A DNA stretch of 7,393 nucleotides. It comes from Ktedonobacter sp. 13_1_20CM_4_53_11. Lineage in GTDB: Bacteria > Chloroflexota > Ktedonobacteria > Ktedonobacterales > Ktedonobacteraceae. Positions 1-7,393 of the stretch are shown here, piece after piece; the first letter of the stretch is position 1, and each line of letters opens with the position of its first letter. Where the stretch lies: the NCBI GenBank assembly GCA_001919995.1, contig MNIY01000074.1, positions 1-7,393 of the forward strand, given 5' to 3'. The translations under genes and the position numbers were made by a program. The notes beneath the pieces are model-generated. The model was not told the DNA's origin and ran no database searches. It was given only the letters and a program-made list of their open reading frames with translations.

Positions 1-806
1 GCGAACTCGTCTCCTTGATAGTCAAGGGGCTTCCTCTGCCCACGCTCATCTACGCATTTCGCGGTTTTACTCCTGAGCATTATCCTGGTGAGAACCATTG
101 CCTTCCCATTCAAATCGTGATTGGCACACAGATGCTGCACGCTGTTGGCCTGGCCATGGCGGCGAAAATATCGGGCGATAAGGCAGTCGCCGTTGGTGTA
201 TGTGGCGATGGAGCAACGTCCGAGGGAGATTTCAACGAAGCCTTGAATTTCGCGGGCGTCTTTCAAGCGCCTGTGGTGCTGGTAGTACAGAATAACGGCT
301 GGGCTATCAGCGTTCCCCGTCATAAACAGAGCGCTGCACCTACCTTCGCCGCTCGTGGGGCCGGTTTCGGTGTCCCGTCTGTCCTGGTTGACGGTAATGA
401 TATTCTCGCGGTCTACGCTGTGATGCAGCAGGCCGTCGAGCGTGCGCGTGCCGGTCAGGGACCCACGCTTGTGGAGACGCTCACTTATCGCATCGGGGCG
501 CATACGACTGCCGATGACCCCACGCGCTATCGCAGCCCGGAGGAGGTGGAGGCATGGCGAGCGAAAGACCCGCTCACGCGCTTCAAGCGCTTCCTGGTGA
601 GCCGCGACATGCTCGATGAAGAACAGGACCGGCAGCTCATTGCAGCAGTCGAAGAGGAGATCAACGAAGCGGTACGTGTAGCCGAGGCGATGCCACCAAT
701 GGCCCCTGACAGCTTCTTTGACTATACTTCGGCCTCGCTTTCCCCGCGATTGCAAGAGCAGCGTGCTGACCTGCTGCGCTATGTAGAACCCGGCCAGGGA
801 GAATAA
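1..806 (+). CDS. pdhA: Pyruvate (2-oxoacid) dehydrogenase E1 component, alpha subunit, 5' partial
   Basis: This is the alpha half of the thiamine-diphosphate-dependent E1 enzyme, which decarboxylates pyruvate (or a related 2-oxoacid) and passes the acyl group to the lipoyl arm of E2 in the cytoplasm. The frame is open to the left edge (first full codon at base 3), and 267 codons are visible. Bacillus PdhA has about 370 residues, so roughly 100 N-terminal residues lie outside the window. The TTG at base 15 is inside the gene and is not a start. The ThDP/Mg motif begins with GDG at bases 204-212 and ends with NN at 291-296. The active-site loop is seen as HTTADDPTRYR (about bases 501-533). The KGLPLP segment near the left end and the C-terminal stretch both follow the Bacillus PdhA pattern. 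The stop lies 6 bases before pdhB. Pyruvate is favoured by overall resemblance, but a branched-chain 2-oxoacid substrate cannot be excluded. Confidence 0.93.
   Translation, partial: ELVSLIVKGLPLPTLIYAFRGFTPEHYPGENHCLPIQIVIGTQMLHAVGLAMAAKISGDKAVAVGVCGDGATSEGDFNEALNFAGVFQAPVVLVVQNNGWAISVPRHKQSAAPTFAARGAGFGVPSVLVDGNDILAVYAVMQQAVERARAGQGPTLVETLTYRIGAHTTADDPTRYRSPEEVEAWRAKDPLTRFKRFLVSRDMLDEEQDRQLIAAVEEEINEAVRVAEAMPPMAPDSFFDYTSASLSPRLQEQRADLLRYVEPGQGE
796..802 (+). promoter_or_regulatory. Shine-Dalgarno for pdhB
   Basis: AGGGAGA lies at the end of pdhA, 10 bases before the ATG at 813. Two other in-frame ATGs follow at 819 and 825. The spacing favours 813, or 819 if a longer spacing is allowed. Placement inside the upstream gene implies coupled translation of E1 alpha and E1 beta. 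Confidence 0.5.
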
Positions 807-812
807 ACGTTT

Positions 813-1793
813 ATGTTAATGACGATGATCGAGGCCCTGAATCACTCGCTCACCCTTGAGTTGGAGCGAGACAAGCGCGTTGTGGTATTTGGGCAGGATA
901 TAGGTGTCAATGGGGGAGTCTTCCGAGTTACCGAGCACCTGCAGGAGAAGTTCGGAGAACAACGTGTCTTCGATACGCCGCTCTCCGAGTCGGCCATCAT
1001 TGGCAGTGCAGTGGGCATGTCTGTCTATGGGCTGCGGCCGATTGCCGAGATACAGTTCGCGGGCTTCCTTTTTGTGTGCATGAATCAGCTGGCGTCACAG
1101 GCCGCGCGCATGCGTTTCCGCAGCGCGGGAGCCTATACCTGTCCCATGGTGGTACGCGCGCCCTACGGTGGTGGCGTGCGCACGCCGGAATTGCACTCGG
1201 ACAGCCTTGAAGGCGTGTTCATGCAGACCCCTGGCCTCAAGGTGGTCATCCCTTCGAACCCCTATGATGCCAAAGGTCTACTGGCCTCGGCTGTTGCCGA
1301 TCCTGATCCCGTGCTGTTCCTGGAGAATATCAAACTCTACCGCTCATTCCGCCTGGAGACGCCGGAAGAATATTATACCGTTCCTCTCTGCAAGGCAAAG
1401 ACGGTGCAGGAGGGAACGGATGTGAGCCTTTTTGCTTATGGCGCGATGGTACCCATCGCCGTGGAGGCGGCGAAACAGGTGCAAAAAGAGCATGGCATCA
1501 GCGTTGAGGTTATCGATCTGCGCACGGTCTGGCCCCTCGATGAAGAGGCTATAGTCGCCTCTGTCGAGAAAACCGGCCGCGCAGTAGTTGTCCACGAGGC
1601 TCCTCGAGCGGGCGGTGTTGGCGCTGAAATAACAGCGATCATTAATGAACGTTGCTTGTATTCGCTTTTAAAGCCGGTTGGACGGGTCACGGGTTATGAC
1701 ACTCCTTATCCTGTGCCTGGCCTGGAGGACTATTATTTGCCGAATGCAGCCAAGGTATTGACAGCGTTGCGACAGGTGATGGAGCCAGCGTAA
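813..1793 (+). CDS. pdhB: Pyruvate (2-oxoacid) dehydrogenase E1 component, beta subunit
   Basis: This is the beta half of the E1 heterotetramer. It completes the ThDP site (it contacts the pyrimidine ring) and provides the surface that docks on the E2 subunit-binding domain. The 326 residues match the usual length (~325). Family landmarks are visible in order: GQDIGVNGGVFRVTE near residue 27, FDTPLSESAI near 53, EIQFAGF near 78, RAPYGGGVRTPELHSDSLEG near 114, VIPSNPYDAKGLL near 145, FLENIKLYRSFR near 169, and the C-terminal transketolase-type domain with VIDLRTVWPLD and SVEKTGRAVVVHEAPRAGG. All are close to Bacillus PdhB. It follows pdhA by 6 bases and precedes the E2 frame by 53 bases, so the three genes are probably co-transcribed. 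No promoter was found between them. No truncation or odd residue was noticed. Confidence 0.95.
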   Translation: MLMTMIEALNHSLTLELERDKRVVVFGQDIGVNGGVFRVTEHLQEKFGEQRVFDTPLSESAIIGSAVGMSVYGLRPIAEIQFAGFLFVCMNQLASQAARMRFRSAGAYTCPMVVRAPYGGGVRTPELHSDSLEGVFMQTPGLKVVIPSNPYDAKGLLASAVADPDPVLFLENIKLYRSFRLETPEEYYTVPLCKAKTVQEGTDVSLFAYGAMVPIAVEAAKQVQKEHGISVEVIDLRTVWPLDEEAIVASVEKTGRAVVVHEAPRAGGVGAEITAIINERCLYSLLKPVGRVTGYDTPYPVPGLEDYYLPNAAKVLTALRQVMEPA

Positions 1794-1846: not shown

Positions 1847-4408
1847 ATGACGTACGAATTTAAGTTGGCCGACCTGGGCGAAGGGATGCATGAAGCGGAA
1901 ATAGTGCAATGGCTCATTGACGTCGGTGATACTGCTAAACTCGACCAGGCTATCGCCAAAGTGGAAACGGATAAGGCCGTCGTCGAACTCCCGTCTCCTG
2001 TTACTGGACGAGTCAGCGAGATTCGTGTGAAGGATGGGCAGACCGCTAAGGTAGGCGATGTACTGGTCGTCTTTGAGACTTCTGCCGCCAGCAGTGGCGA
2101 TGGCACGCCAAAAAGTAGCGAAACACCCGCTGTCGCCACCTCCTCTGCTCCAACAAATATGTCTTCTGTAGCAACAGCATCCTCACAAAGCGCGCCTTCA
2201 GTTGCAGCGCGTCCGCGAGTACAGGCAGCGCCCGCGGTACGAAAACTCGCCTTTGAATTAGGCGTAGACCTTGAGCAGGTCACGCCGTCAAGTGCAAGTG
2301 GGCGAGTTTCGCTTGAAGATGTACGGGCTTATGCCGAACGCGCCGGGAGTGCGACTTCAGGTGCGCAGAATGGCGCTTCCACTGCCGAGGTTGCAAGCAC
2401 AGCCGCGCCAAAAGAAGAACAACTTGCTCCCTCTACATCACCTGTCGAAAAGAAAGTTGATCAGGCGGGCACTGAAGATCAGCGTCAACCCCTGACCGGG
2501 TTGCGTAAGCGTGTCGCGGAACATATGGAGCGTTCCTGGCGCACCATTCCTCATGCGACCGCCTTTGACGAGATCGACGGCGGCGCGTTGATAGCATTGC
2601 GCCAGGCGTTGAAACCCATTGCTGAGCAGCGTGGAGTACGCCTGACCTATATGCCGCTGTTGATCAAACTGCTCATACCGCTGCTCAAAGAGTTTCCCAT
2701 CTTTAATGCTAGCCTCGATGAAGAGAAGCGCGAGATTGTGTACAAACGCTCCTACCATATCGGAGTGGCTACCGACTCGCCAGAGGGTCTGCTGGTGCCC
2801 GTAATGCGCAACGCTGATCGCCTCACCCTGATGGAGGTTGCTGCAAAGCTTGAGAAGTTGATCGAGGGCGCGCAGAAACGCACGCTTGCTCTTCCTGAGG
2901 TCAGTGGTAGCACCTTTACGCTGAATAACGTCGGGAGTTTTGGCGGCGGCAGCGGCACCCCAATTATCAATTATCCTGAAGCAGCGATCCTCGCTGTCGG
3001 CAGAATACAGGAAAAGGCGATTGCGCGGCAGGGAGCAGTCATTGTACGTCCGGTGATGCCGCTGGCGCTTTCATTTGACCACAGGCTCATCGATGGCCCT
3101 GGAGGCTATGTAGCAGCAATTCGCGCTGCTAAACTCGGTCATCATGTTACATTGGTTGACCAGGGACCTCCTGGTGGAACCTGCCTTAATCGAGGTTGTA
3201 TTCCACTCAAAGCGCTGCTTTCTTCAACTGAGCGCTATTATGACACCCAACAGGAAGAACTGGCGGCGATGGGTATCGCGGCTGAAACTGTCTCATTTGA
3301 CTGGCCCAGGATGCAGGCGTGGAAACAGAGCGTTGTTGATCGCTTAACAGATGGTGTACGGCGCCTGGTGGCCGGTAACCATATCGATTACGTATATGGT
3401 ACAGGCTGGTTCATGAACGCCCAGGAAGTGCGTGTCGAAGGCGAACACGGTTCCCACCGTTTCAAATTTGATCACTGTATCCTCGCGGTCGGTGCCGACG
3501 CTGCTGGCCATCCCCAACTGCCATATGATGGCGAACGTGTATTAACCCCAGAGCAAGCCTTGCAGCTGCCGGAATTGCCGAATACGCTCAATATCCTGGG
3601 AGATGACTATATCGCCCTGGAACTGGCAACACTCTTCGGGCGACTTGGTGTCGAGGTCAAACTATATTCACCGGGCGAGCAGATCCTGGCTGGATGCGAT
3701 CCTACCGCGTTACGGTTGGTCCAGTCAGGATTGCGCAAGTTGGGGATTCAGACAGCGACGAAGACGGCTATTGAATACGTGACAGATCGGCCTGTAGTCA
3801 TCTCCCAGGGCGTCTCTCCCCATACGGCTGGATTACACCTGGATGCGGTAGGTGTGAACACTTCGAGCAACGGCGGCATCGCTGTCAATGCTATGCAGCA
3901 GAGCTCTGTACCGCATATCCTGGCGGTAGGTGACTGTACAGGTGGTCGTGCCCTTGCCAGCGTTGCCATGAAACAGGGAAAAGTGGCTGCCGAGGTGCTC
4001 TCTGGTCAACGTGTACAGTTCGCGCCACTGGTGACGCCGCTTGTAGTCCACACGGCACCAGAGATAGCCATGGTTGGGTATTTGGCAGATGAGGCAACAC
4101 AGGCTGGTTATCCCGTCGTTACAGGTCGTTTTCCTCTAGCCGCCAATGGACGCGCTTTGACCCTTGGTAAAGATAATGGGGTCGCGCTGATAGTGGCAAA
4201 TGCTGATGACGGGGTATTGCTCGGGGCTACCATAGCAGGTCCACGCGCCGGTGATTTAATAGGGCAGGCAGCGCTCGCTATCGAGATGGGCGCGACGCTG
4301 ACCGACCTCGCTGAGATTCTTTATGCTCATCCCAGCCTCAGCGAAGTGCTGCTAGAGAGTGCTGAGAATGCGCTGGGAAGAGCAGTACATATATTGTCGA
4401 AGGGCTAA
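1847..4408 (+). CDS. pdhC: Fused 2-oxoacid dehydrogenase E2 (acyltransferase) and E3-like (dihydrolipoamide dehydrogenase) protein
   Basis: One 853-residue frame carries two enzymes that are normally separate. Residues 1-80 are a lipoyl domain with lipoyl-lysine K43 in ETDKAVVE. Residues 80-122 are an Ala/Ser/Thr/Pro-rich linker. Residues 124-163 are the peripheral-subunit-binding domain (PAVRKLAFELGVDL to SLEDVRAYAE). A second linker runs to ~212. Residues 214-417 are the acyltransferase core, ending in DHRLIDG with catalytic H412 and D416. From G417 the chain becomes E3: GPGGYVAAIRAAKLG, the redox pair C446/C451 in CLNRGC, the second FAD motif AVGDC (693-697), and the catalytic dyad H828/E833 in HPSLSE. 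About 25 residues of the E2 C-terminus and the first FAD strand of E3 are missing at the joint. The E3 NAD-binding motif reads GDDYIA (585-590), and the stretch before the GRRPNT-equivalent is ~17 residues short. GGAG at 1836-1839 supports the ATG at 1847. Role: acyl transfer to CoA is expected, but whether either half works is uncertain. The gene symbol refers to the E2 half; the E3 half resembles pdhD/lpd. Confidence 0.88.
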   Translation: MTYEFKLADLGEGMHEAEIVQWLIDVGDTAKLDQAIAKVETDKAVVELPSPVTGRVSEIRVKDGQTAKVGDVLVVFETSAASSGDGTPKSSETPAVATSSAPTNMSSVATASSQSAPSVAARPRVQAAPAVRKLAFELGVDLEQVTPSSASGRVSLEDVRAYAERAGSATSGAQNGASTAEVASTAAPKEEQLAPSTSPVEKKVDQAGTEDQRQPLTGLRKRVAEHMERSWRTIPHATAFDEIDGGALIALRQALKPIAEQRGVRLTYMPLLIKLLIPLLKEFPIFNASLDEEKREIVYKRSYHIGVATDSPEGLLVPVMRNADRLTLMEVAAKLEKLIEGAQKRTLALPEVSGSTFTLNNVGSFGGGSGTPIINYPEAAILAVGRIQEKAIARQGAVIVRPVMPLALSFDHRLIDGPGGYVAAIRAAKLGHHVTLVDQGPPGGTCLNRGCIPLKALLSSTERYYDTQQEELAAMGIAAETVSFDWPRMQAWKQSVVDRLTDGVRRLVAGNHIDYVYGTGWFMNAQEVRVEGEHGSHRFKFDHCILAVGADAAGHPQLPYDGERVLTPEQALQLPELPNTLNILGDDYIALELATLFGRLGVEVKLYSPGEQILAGCDPTALRLVQSGLRKLGIQTATKTAIEYVTDRPVVISQGVSPHTAGLHLDAVGVNTSSNGGIAVNAMQQSSVPHILAVGDCTGGRALASVAMKQGKVAAEVLSGQRVQFAPLVTPLVVHTAPEIAMVGYLADEATQAGYPVVTGRFPLAANGRALTLGKDNGVALIVANADDGVLLGATIAGPRAGDLIGQAALAIEMGATLTDLAEILYAHPSLSEVLLESAENALGRAVHILSKG
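3077..3109 (+). other. E2-to-E3 fusion joint
   Basis: These 11 codons read DHRLIDGPGGY. The first seven residues are the E2 active-site motif, which usually lies ~25 residues before the E2 stop. The last five (GPGGY) are the dinucleotide-binding loop of E3, which usually lies ~15-20 residues after the E3 start. The glycine at 3095-3097 is shared by both motifs. This is what an in-frame deletion between two similar Gly-rich sites in adjacent genes would leave. The first glycine of the E3 GxGxxG is replaced by Ile. Confidence 0.8.
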
Positions 4409-4449: not shown

Positions 4450-5859
4450 TCATTCTTTCCTGCGTTTCGCCATCTCTTCCTCAGTAGTCCCGGTAGTTAC
4501 CAGTTCGTAGAGCAAAGCTTCACCCTCTTTGGGGCGTAAGATGCGACCCAGGCGCTGGATATATTCGCGCTTAGTGCTATTGCCGCTCACGATAATGGCT
4601 ATGCGGCAATCAGGCACATCGACTCCTTCGTTCAGAACGCGCCCGGTCACCAGTTTTGTATACTGTCCTGTGCGGAACCTGTCCAGGATGGTGCGGCGTT
4701 CCTCGGTTGGGGTTTTATAGGTGATGCTTGGCAGGCAGAAACGCCGGCTGATTTGATCGACGACAGGATTGTATTCAGAGAAGAGCAGCACCTGGTCAGC
4801 TGCGTGCTTATGCAATAAGCGCTCGATTTCGCTATACTTGGCGGGCGCATTCATGGCGATTTGGCGGGCCTCGCGCCACGCCAGCATAGCGGTACGCGCT
4901 TCAGGGTCTCGCGCGCTGAGGAAGATCAGCTTTTGCTGGAAGTCCTCGGGTGAACGAATGACAATACGGCGGCGGCGTAAAAATGAACTGTAGATGCGCC
5001 TTTGTTCAGCATAACGTATCTCATCCTCGCTCGATAAGGCAATATCGATAATCTTTTCCTGGTATTGTGCGAGGTAACGACCCTCTGTCAATTCGGCGGG
5101 TGAGCGCCGGTACACCTCCGGCCCTATCAATTCATCCAGTTCGATATGAGCCATGTCGCTGCGTTCTGGTGTGGCGCTAAGTCCCAGGCGCAAAGGTGTG
5201 AAGGCGCTCTCGGCGATGAGGCGATAGGTTGGTGCGGGCAAGTGGTGACATTCATCGAAGATGAGCAGGCCGAAGCGCGATAGTTCGCGGGGGTAGAGCG
5301 CTGCAGAATCATAGGTAATGATGGTAATTGGCTTCAACTCTTTCTCTCCCCCGCCAAATGTGCCGATGTCGTCAATGTTGAGAGAAAGGGCAGTGGCAAG
5401 CGCCGTACGCCACTGCTGCAAGAGATCAATCGTAGGGACTACCGCCAGTGTCCACAGACCCGTCTCGACGATAGCCATTGCTGCCACAAACGTTTTACCG
5501 GCACCTGTTGGCAGTACTACAACACCTGCACTGCCCTGCGCTAACCACGCGGTCAGGGCATCCTCCTGGTATGGTCGTGGTTCGATAGCCAGTGCTGTCG
5601 AGAAGGGTAGGGTGGGACGCTCCTCAAAAACTACTGTAAAGGGTGTCTGTTGTTGCCGCAGCGCCTGTTTCACCGCACTGAAATGGATCGGTTGCGTGCG
5701 CACAAAATGAAAGCGTTTATCTCTCCCCATTTTCGCCCTGAGAGCTTTGGGGAGGTATGGACCAAAGAGGCTGTCCAGTAGTGCGGGCGTTGGAAGTTCT
5801 AACAATTCAGCGGGAGGTGTGATGGTAAGATCACGACCCCGCAGGTCAATCGTAGTCAT
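4450..5859 (-). CDS. XPB/SSL2-like superfamily 2 DNA helicase
   Basis: This is an ATP-dependent DNA helicase or translocase of 469 residues from the chosen start. Motifs in order: Walker A PTGAGKT (117-123), DECH box (202-205), motif III SAT (228-230), motif V LNEGVDVPD (409-417), and motif VI QRLGRILRP (435-443). The wording around them (FDECHHLPAPTYR, LGLSATPERSD, SGNSTKREYIQRLGR) is that of bacterial and archaeal XPB-like helicases, not of ComFA or RecG. About 85 residues precede the helicase core and are not recognised. Start: the frame stays open to an ATG at 5955, but those 32 extra residues overlap dprA in another frame and look non-coding. The ATG at 5857-5859 lies 10 bases after the dprA stop. 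Its Shine-Dalgarno is weak, so translation probably depends on ribosomes finishing dprA. The nuclease often paired with XPB helicases (Bax1/DUF790) is not in the window. The biological role (repair, transformation or defence) is inferred only from neighbours. Confidence 0.88.
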   Translation of the reverse strand: MTTIDLRGRDLTITPPAELLELPTPALLDSLFGPYLPKALRAKMGRDKRFHFVRTQPIHFSAVKQALRQQQTPFTVVFEERPTLPFSTALAIEPRPYQEDALTAWLAQGSAGVVVLPTGAGKTFVAAMAIVETGLWTLAVVPTIDLLQQWRTALATALSLNIDDIGTFGGGEKELKPITIITYDSAALYPRELSRFGLLIFDECHHLPAPTYRLIAESAFTPLRLGLSATPERSDMAHIELDELIGPEVYRRSPAELTEGRYLAQYQEKIIDIALSSEDEIRYAEQRRIYSSFLRRRRIVIRSPEDFQQKLIFLSARDPEARTAMLAWREARQIAMNAPAKYSEIERLLHKHAADQVLLFSEYNPVVDQISRRFCLPSITYKTPTEERRTILDRFRTGQYTKLVTGRVLNEGVDVPDCRIAIIVSGNSTKREYIQRLGRILRPKEGEALLYELVTTGTTEEEMAKRRKE

Positions 5860-5869
5860 GGTCTGTTCA

Positions 5870-6874
5870 CTACTCGTTGGATGATGTAAATAGCGAAAGT
5901 TGCTCTGAACGTTCGGGCTTTTCGCTCTGTTTTTGTTGTAACATGGCACTTTCAATGAAGAGTGAGATGGATAATTCGGCGATATGCTCTGTAGGCCAGG
6001 GAAGAGGAACTCCTCCTAGATCGATAAGAGCATCATTACCAGCAAGTAATGTAGAGGATACTGTTTGGCGCACATAGAGCGGCCGCCCCTGCTTCAATGC
6101 GCCATTTGCACCTTCCCATGTGCCACCCTTGATATCCGCTTCGGCAACGATCACTACCTGGGCCAGGCCGGTAACAACTTTATTGCGTTCCATAGCGCGA
6201 CTTACCACCCATGGAGCATCGGGGTGAAACTGGCTCATCAAAAGGACATTTCCCGCTTCAATTTTGGGGACGAGGTTTCGCATCTGGACGCCACTAAGTT
6301 TACGGATGCCGTGCGGCAGTACAACAGTAGTATGGCCATTATCAGTACTGGTAGCGCCCTCAAAGGCAGCCCGGTCAACGCCACGAGCGTTGCCACTGAT
6401 AACATTAGCACCCTTTTCTGCTAAAAATTGTGCTATCTCTCGAGTAAATGCGAGGCTTGATTCCCCGGCATTACGTGAGCCAATAATGCCAATAGTTTGG
6501 CGTTCAAGGATTTGCAAATCGCCTGCATAGCAGAGTACAGGGGGTAGTTGATTACGGTTGAGGGCTAATTTGAGTAGCCTGGGATAGTTTTCGTCAAACA
6601 CAGTGAGCAAATGAATATGCTCGTGGGACAACTTCTCTACCAGAAACGCTTGTCCAACCAGTTTCTCTTTCGCCTGTTCAAGTTTCTGAATGATTTCTGT
6701 CTTGAGATGGCATGTAGCGATCCATTCCTCTTTACTGGTCGCAAAGAACTCTTGCAATGTTCTGCCAAGTTGTTTACACCAGACTACGAGAATGTCGTTG
6801 ATGATGCGAGTAGATAGCCCGCTTTCAAACGCCAACAGAAGCCAGCAGGATTGTTCTTGTAAATCTTCGTTCAT
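5870..6874 (-). CDS. DprA/Smf-family single-stranded-DNA-binding protein, short form with clamp-binding-like tail
   Basis: DprA proteins bind single-stranded DNA and, in transformable bacteria, load RecA on it. The 334 residues divide into an N-terminal helical region (~10-80), a link with FDENYPRLL and PPVLCYAGDL (93-120), and the Rossmann-like core from ~126. The core shows GSRNAG (132-137), SGNARGVD (160-167), RNKVVTGL (230-237), and GGTWEGA (250-256) where competence DprA has a GS-L-TA-type motif. The GGTW form is, from memory, typical of DprA paralogues outside the competence group, so dprA is not given as a symbol. No C-terminal winged helix is present. The tail instead ends in a charged stretch plus QLSLF (325-329), five residues from the end. 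The ATG at 6874 has a strong Shine-Dalgarno overlapping the stop of the upstream PRTase gene, so the two proteins are likely made together. Family assignment is firm; function is not. Confidence 0.87.
   Translation of the reverse strand: MNEDLQEQSCWLLLAFESGLSTRIINDILVVWCKQLGRTLQEFFATSKEEWIATCHLKTEIIQKLEQAKEKLVGQAFLVEKLSHEHIHLLTVFDENYPRLLKLALNRNQLPPVLCYAGDLQILERQTIGIIGSRNAGESSLAFTREIAQFLAEKGANVISGNARGVDRAAFEGATSTDNGHTTVVLPHGIRKLSGVQMRNLVPKIEAGNVLLMSQFHPDAPWVVSRAMERNKVVTGLAQVVIVAEADIKGGTWEGANGALKQGRPLYVRQTVSSTLLAGNDALIDLGGVPLPWPTEHIAELSISLFIESAMLQQKQSEKPERSEQLSLFTSSNE
5888..5902 (-). other. Sliding-clamp-binding-like pentapeptide QLSLF in the DprA tail
   Basis: Residues 325-329 read QLSLF, which matches the bacterial beta-clamp-binding consensus QL(S/D)LF. 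The motif sits in a probably flexible charged tail (KPERSE before it, TSSNE after it), as expected for an exposed peptide. Function is inferred from the match alone. Confidence 0.55.
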
Positions 6875-6879
6875 GGTAG

Positions 6880-6886
6880 CCTCCTA
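6880..6886 (-). promoter_or_regulatory. Shine-Dalgarno of the DprA gene overlapping the PRTase stop
   Basis: On the minus strand TAGGAGG contains the TAG stop of the phosphoribosyltransferase and lies 5 bases before the DprA ATG. It fixes the DprA start at 6874 and indicates translational coupling of the two genes. Confidence 0.8.
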
Positions 6887-7393
6887 TTGGTCATCAGAAT
6901 GGGCAGTTCGGGTAATGGTTAGTGGAAATACTGAATTTGCACCTGCTTGCCTCAATGCTTGAGCTACTTCACGTAACATATAACCCGAGTCATAGATGTC
7001 ATCGATAAGCAATAATGTACATCCAGCAATCTCAGGAGAACTGGCACAGAACGCTCCTCTGACGTTGTCGACCTTTTGCCGCCAGTTGGTCAAATATTTT
7101 TGCTCCTGTGTTGGCCGTACTTTTTCAATTACAGATAGATATTCTATACCCAACTGTGCGGCAACTTGTCGAGCAAACGTCTCGACTAATAGCCCGCTTT
7201 TCGTCGGTGGCACGCTTACTATACCATTGATGGTATCTATTGGATAGCGGGTCCGTACCAATTTAACGACCCGAGTAACAAGGTTTGGGGCAAATGGTCC
7301 GGCATTTTCATATTTGCTTGCGCGCACCAATCGGCCAGTACGACTATTACCATGAAATGAAAGTGACCAACCAGCTTGATGCTCTGGACGTTT
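6884..7393 (-). CDS. Phosphoribosyltransferase-fold protein (ComF / RecQ-associated type), 5' partial
   Basis: The frame is open to the right edge of the window, with 169 residues visible. The TTG at 7330 is internal, because coding-like sequence (GWSLSFHGNSRTGRLVRASK) continues upstream of it. The type I PRTase landmarks are VPPTKSGLLVETFARQVA, then TQEQKYLTNWRQKVDNVRGAF, then the PRPP-binding loop LLLIDDIYDSG (acidic pair and DSG at bases 6983-7003) and ALRQAGA after it. ComF proteins share this order, but their loop usually reads DD-x-x-TTG. The D-S-G form is, from memory, common in PRTase domains fused to RecQ helicases. This could therefore be the C-terminal domain of a longer RecQ-like protein or a stand-alone PRTase. 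Its substrate is unknown. ComF-like proteins act in DNA uptake and repair rather than proven base salvage. It is coupled to the DprA gene 9 bases downstream. Confidence 0.8.
   Translation of the reverse strand, partial: KRPEHQAGWSLSFHGNSRTGRLVRASKYENAGPFAPNLVTRVVKLVRTRYPIDTINGIVSVPPTKSGLLVETFARQVAAQLGIEYLSVIEKVRPTQEQKYLTNWRQKVDNVRGAFCASSPEIAGCTLLLIDDIYDSGYMLREVAQALRQAGANSVFPLTITRTAHSDDQ

Follow-up and report, generated by a model that had tools for sequence, protein, structure and literature searches.

A single reading frame in the window, as we call the whole stretch of DNA analysed (7,393 bp of a Ktedonobacter contig), joins an E2 and an E3 component of a 2-oxoacid dehydrogenase complex directly through their glycine-rich active-site motifs. 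This raises the question of whether the frame encodes a new kind of complex component or reflects the loss of a short segment between two ordinary genes, pdhC (E2) and pdhD (E3).

The fused frame and its joint

The features of the fused frame are as follows.

1847..4408, + strand: E2 run into E3, one open frame of 853 aa (E2 residues 1-417, E3 residues 417-853; ORF list, Pfam)
1847..3097, + strand: E2 half, with lipoyl, E3-binding and catalytic domain up to DHRLIDG, without the 25-residue C-terminal tail (Pfam, 100% identity to P0236)
3077..3097, + strand: E2 active-site motif DHRLIDG, residues 411-417
3095..3097, + strand: joint at the Gly417 codon (GGC), where E2-like sequence gives way to E3-like sequence; 152 bp of locus L002 are absent here
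3095..4408, + strand: E3 half, with residues 1-17 missing and with them beta strand 1 and the FAD motif's first glycine (Pfam, 97% identity to P0122)
within 3176..3205, + strand: redox CxxxxC (CLNRGC) of the E3 half
3599..3616, + strand: degenerate NAD motif GDDYIA, common to the intact operon E3s of the lineage
4328..4345, + strand: HPxxxE (HPSLSE) of the E3 dimer domain

The frame is open throughout, no internal stop being present across 1847-4408. In its 853-aa product, Pfam recognises Biotin_lipoyl (PF00364) at residues 4-75, E3_binding (PF02817) at 125-160, 2-oxoacid_dh (PF00198) at 210-417 (profile 3-210 of 232), Pyr_redox_2 at 417-711 (profile 9-291 of 291) and Pyr_redox_dim at 730-838. 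The lipoyl domain, the E3-binding domain and the DHRxxDG motif of E2 are all present, as are the redox disulfide CxxxxC and the dimer-domain HPxxxE of E3; judged by sequence, both halves are unmistakable homologues of these enzymes, chance being excluded. The first-pass annotation had described the E2 motif as passing directly into E3 with one glycine in common, and this is what is found: GPGGYVAA starts at Gly417 (3095), the same glycine that ends DHRLIDG. Since a random join falls in frame about once in three times, the in-frame state of this joint needs no selection.

A separate E3 translated from an internal start was also considered and rejected. The in-frame ATG, GTG or TTG codons among residues 381-520 lie at 403, 404, 436, 475, 489 and 508, and none of them restores the lost E3 N-terminus.

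Intact counterparts of the two halves

Each half was searched on its own. For the E2 half, one match is P0236, an intact public E2 of 442 aa that is 100% identical to the 417 aa of the window (query coverage 100%) and continues for 25 more residues. The catalytic domain of the window protein is incomplete, without its C-terminal helix: PF00198 stops there at position 210 of 232, whereas P0236 follows the profile to its end (3-232 of 232). Among the best 120 of 7850 matches, 19 are at least 95% identical to the E2 half (P0236-P0254), and every one of the 19 has the tail. The DHRxxDG motif occurs in 118 of the 120, always followed by exactly 25 residues, and the remaining two terminate ahead of it.

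The E3 half has a counterpart in P0122 (454 aa, with a full N-terminus), which is 97% identical to it over 436 aa; it is the sole E3 above 90% among the best 120 of 7892 matches, the next being at 87%. The shared glycine of the joint corresponds to E3 position 18. The first beta strand and the GxGxxG of the FAD site are not found in the window, which reads IDGPGG where GAGPGG is expected; the FAD GxGxxG is kept, by alignment, in all 120 listed E3 matches. The Pyr_redox_2 profile begins at position 9 in the window protein and at position 2 in P0122 (2-291 of 291), and with TIGR01350 the window protein scores 392.4 bits, under the cut-off of 408.8, while the intact P0122 exceeds it (414.0). Both losses reported at first pass, that of the E2 C-terminal helix region of about 25 residues (417 aa against the 442 of P0236) and that of the E3 first strand with the first glycine of its FAD motif (residues 1-17), are therefore borne out. 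P0236 and P0122 need not derive from one genome.

The joint in relatives

A search with the whole protein, in which the length range (about 469-1493 aa) admits 853 aa and the 7998 candidates sharing most words were scored, gave 3281 matches. The same joint is present in none of the best 120; 17 of these are longer than 700 aa and joined differently, and the others are of 607 aa or less. A degenerate DNA pattern spanning the joint gave zero matches in viral contigs.

Genome contigs were also scanned, yielding 30 loci. In the ten Chloroflexota loci that were read at the joint, E2 and E3 are separate genes; in the seven Bacillota-type loci with both halves, an in-frame stop lies just upstream of the E3's own start in all seven, the E2 tail being recognised by motif in one; the other 13 hold one half only. 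Of 47 genomes searched in the class of G001, 27 gave matches at E 1e-90 or better. The joint was read in 19 of them and in the Chloroflexi loci L006, L026 and L030, making 22 genomes; the other eight of the 27 were left out on account of a match to one half, a contig end, or halves on different contigs. The search of relatives proposed at first pass thus returned separate genes carrying the missing segments in all 22 genomes, E2 running on for 25 residues to a stop codon of its own and E3 starting separately at MVVGDV. In 15 loci the two glycine codons are less than 400 bp apart, with a spacing of 143-254 bp, and in the others the genes lie at a greater distance.

The nearest relative that covers the joint is L002 (Ktedonobacter sp. 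UBA10473), in which 152 bp absent from the window lie between the E2 and E3 parts, with GG common at the joint; this size is gauged on a relative at 80% identity that has E2 frame breaks of its own. The window is 79.7% identical to L002 in DNA up to 3097 and 79.5% from 3095 onward, and this equal distance means that the two halves fit one kind of genome. In 60-bp bins at a fixed L002 offset, the eight nearest the joint have 77-88% identity; two of the five bins to the left of the joint (2798-2917) match at 25 and 58%, which is put down to an indel in the L002 E2. A chimera of two species was considered and is not favoured, given the equal distance to L002 on both sides and the near-identical public counterparts for both halves.

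The E2 of this UBA10473 contig (L002 547-1877) is split over three frames, through sequencing errors or real frameshifts; despite this broken frame, neither the E2 tail nor the start of E3 is damaged. A nearer relative (L008, 92%) has a contig that stops inside E2, at window position 2694. From the genetic code, the homology at the joint in the window's own ancestor would amount to 2-4 bases.

Neighbouring genes

The other genes predicted in the window are as follows.

3..806, + strand: E1 alpha (pdhA), cut by the window start (PF00676, E=1.7e-74; TIGR03181 87-340 of 341)
813..1793, + strand: E1 beta (pdhB), complete (PF02779, PF02780)
4450-5955, - strand: ResIII/XPB-like helicase (PF04851, PF16203)
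5870-6874, - strand: DprA-like gene (PADLOC PsyrA, E=8.1e-71)
6884-7393, - strand: C-terminal phosphoribosyltransferase part, cut by the window end (PADLOC PsyrT 525-688 of 689, E=1.9e-44)

The last two genes are probably a PsyrTA-type toxin-antitoxin pair, which also matches ShosA and ShosT, more weakly. The helicase matches part of PADLOC PbeA (best E=8.1e-51), although these matches may simply reflect the common helicase fold.

Expected effect on the protein

If translated, the product would keep the lipoyl and E3-binding domains. It would lack the E2 tail, of which the helix is part of the acyltransferase core and the end serves trimer-trimer contacts, and the FAD fold of E3 would be short of its first strand and glycine. 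In the solved relatives 3duf and 7b9k, alignments show the E2 chain going on beyond DHRxxDG, and the alignment of 1ebd, an E3 of known structure, with P0122 begins at residue 10, at the strand missing in the window.

According to PMC10415282, the terminal 3-10 helix of canonical E2s provides the trimer-trimer 'knobs and socket' contact, and actinobacterial E2p, though lacking this contact, is nonetheless a minimally active trimer. Thus, losing the very end of E2 need not by itself abolish activity; the window, however, loses the whole 25-residue tail. Taking into account that this entire tail is gone, that the first strand and glycine of E3 are gone as well, and that TIGR01350 falls below its cut-off, both catalytic functions are likely to be lost, and neither part would be expected to work normally.

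Structure models were built for the 853-aa protein and for P0047, a natural E2-E3 fusion, from alignments of the same relatives except for the window protein itself. Of these relatives, 14 are fusions, 63-81% identical to P0047 and about 31-33% to the window, and the single-gene rows were misplaced at their ends. A first, larger alignment was set aside, since 17 of its E2 rows stood at 21-28% identity, far under the pairwise values. The model of the window protein has a mean pLDDT of 60.9, falling below 50 over 342-418, and places a strand (407-411) shortly ahead of the first E3 helix (419-429). The P0047 model (mean pLDDT 73.5) has a tail helix at 390-405, followed after a linker by an E3 strand of its own at 424-428. 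The contrast between the two predicted structures leans slightly towards loss of function in the window.

Origin of the joint

The fused frame is real as written, yet it does not speak for a new enzyme. The reading that we prefer, with a probability of about 0.93, is a deletion that came to be in frame by chance and is specific to this contig within the reach of the searches, whether produced during library making or assembly or present as a rare broken allele, with no new enzyme involved. Starting from an ordinary Ktedonobacteria-type pdhA-pdhB-pdhC-pdhD operon, some 150 bp would have gone, taking away the 25 terminal codons of pdhC with the stop codon, the spacer between the genes, and pdhD from its start through codon 17; the chance in-frame join would then let the two genes be read as one. 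That the fusion is most likely not a new enzyme is supported by the public availability of intact, near-identical E2 and E3 and by the absence of the same joint among the matches listed. Against the preferred reading, the predicted genes adjoining the fused frame are open and the contig otherwise looks clean. As a description of the sequence, the in-frame deletion of pdhC-pdhD suggested at first pass is right, about 150 bp being missing with respect to the relative; the new kind of complex component that it was supposed to have created finds no support, with an intact E2 (100%) and E3 (97%) at hand, no listed homologue sharing the joint, and separate genes in 22 of 22 genomes.

How the deletion arose is what we infer less firmly. 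It has a little better than an even chance of being an artefact of library preparation or assembly, that is, a chimeric or deleted molecule, perhaps under thin coverage, in an organism that has both genes intact. The near-identical intact counterparts in public data, the fact that none of the matches listed repeats the joint, the very short common sequence at the joint and the other operon genes, which are without visible decay, all suit this origin, although it is rare for an assembler to leave out 150 bp unless the overlap is longer. The alternative, that the segment was really lost in a single strain or cell lineage, falls somewhat short of even odds; illegitimate recombination or replication slippage, acting on a few homologous bases, would have produced a loss-of-function pdhC-pdhD allele. 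The joint is shaped like a short-homology deletion, and the loss could be tolerated, as additional E2- and E3-like genes exist in relatives (16 E2- or E3-like matches, one canonical E3, in Ktedonosporobacter); on the other hand, the joint is unseen in the listed homologues at 95% identity or more, and halves without extra decay would require a recent event. The complete Ktedonosporobacter genome owes those 16 matches in part to the operon's own two genes, and some are partial.

A collapse of two similar short sites by the assembler, as was envisaged at first pass, is very unlikely in that form. Glycine-rich motifs are indeed encoded at both sites, but the E2 and E3 sites of L002 have only GG in common at the joint, and k-mer assemblers need overlaps of at least twenty bases. 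The longer string TGGCGCG is common nearby in some relatives (e.g., on the E2 side of L044 and L045, and on E3 sides such as those of L004 and L045-like loci); the window joint lies elsewhere. Since the 2-4 bases expected in the ancestor are too short for the usual assembler collapse, the joint is better matched by a chimeric molecule, some other assembly error or a real deletion of the short-homology kind. A functional new E2-E3 enzyme is highly improbable; the strand ahead of DHRLIDG would serve E2 and, at the same time, begin the FAD domain of E3 as its first strand. In its favour, the frame is open, direct E2-E3 fusions occur elsewhere, and the modelled strand 407-411 does precede the E3 helix. 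However, the same model has low confidence there (pLDDT below 50 over 342-418), the P0047 model has strand, tail helix, linker and a separate E3 strand, 16 natural direct fusions retain both of the segments lost here, no listed homologue has the joint, and one strand would hardly be able to complete two folds. It is also highly improbable that the 853-aa protein is produced as a working minimal E2-E3 enzyme whose last E2 strand doubles as or replaces the E3 first strand, its lipoyl arm handing electrons to the FAD on the same chain. If such a fusion did work, it would go against what is expected, namely that E2 cannot do without its C-terminal helix nor E3 without the GxGxxG strand.

The finding itself is of little weight. 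It has to be highlighted, though, that a small deletion at the level of a contig can pass for a novel fusion enzyme, and that such a case is settled once the halves are searched separately, each in its own length range.

The NAD motif of the operon E3

The NAD GxGxxG is also absent from the E3 half, which reads GDDYIA in its place. As the same degeneracy is present in the intact E3s of the lineage, it is not due to the fusion. In the lineage operon E3s (P0122-P0235 and P0002-P0041), the NAD motif GxGxx(G/A) is lost, mostly to GDDYIA or GNDYIA, and the FAD motif is kept. A canonical NAD motif occurs in one of 120 and none of 34 lineage proteins among the matches listed, and CxxxxC and HPxxxE in all 154. 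Among the whole-protein matches listed, 35 of 38 distant E3s and all eight longer lipoyl-type E3s have the canonical NAD motif.

On the basis of these motifs, the operon E3 of the lineage may use another electron acceptor. A second, canonical E3 was found in Ktedonosporobacter rubrisoli and in the L002 genome (L051 and L056, one each), with both GxGxxG motifs, CxxxxC and HPxxxE. The loss of the NAD motif is the more interesting lead that this window offers, and the question it poses is where the electrons of the lineage's E3s go.

Comparison with known systems

The closest system is that of the separate pdhC (E2) and pdhD (E3) genes of Ktedonobacteria (P0236, P0122; L002, L004), which have the same operon order, where it was read, and the same domains. 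The window differs from them in that some 150 bp at the gene border are gone.

Two complex components on one chain are also known from OdhA/KGD of Actinobacteria. As described in PMC10415282, this is an E2-E1 and not an E2-E3 fusion, and it retains at the domain border the amphipathic C-terminal E2 helix that is absent in the window.

Direct catalytic E2-E3 fusions had been regarded at first pass as not established, and this has to be corrected. Among the best 120 of the 3281 whole-protein matches, 16 of the 17 proteins longer than 700 aa are such fusions, of 776-883 aa (P0044, P0046, P0047, P0049, P0050, P0053, P0054, P0058, P0059, P0061, P0063, P0064 and P0066-P0069), in which DHRxxDG is followed by the E2 tail helix and a full GxGxxG strand; the seventeenth, P0057, has a longer insert. 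The metagenome-assembled genomes that carry them, where named, are assigned to Deltaproteobacteria, Desulfobacteraceae or Pseudomonadota. A lipoyl domain precedes E2 in all of them but P0063. The E2 and E3 domains are nearly whole by Pfam in P0044 and P0067, and P0044, P0047 and P0067 exceed the TIGR01350 cut-off for E3, while none of the E2 models shown reaches its own cut-off. When the genome of L028 was searched with P0044, no clear fusion appeared, the best match covering residues 380-877 with two internal stops. A literature search found no publication on direct E2-E3 fusions, and we know of no natural E2-E3 fusion that has been purified with both activities.

Like the window, these natural fusions place the E2 catalytic domain ahead of E3 on one chain, and the 15 that were aligned are 31-33% identical to it. 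Unlike the window, which has neither segment, they keep the E2 tail and the E3 N-terminus (16 of 17). The natural fusions illustrate the form that a lasting fusion takes, and the window differs from it.
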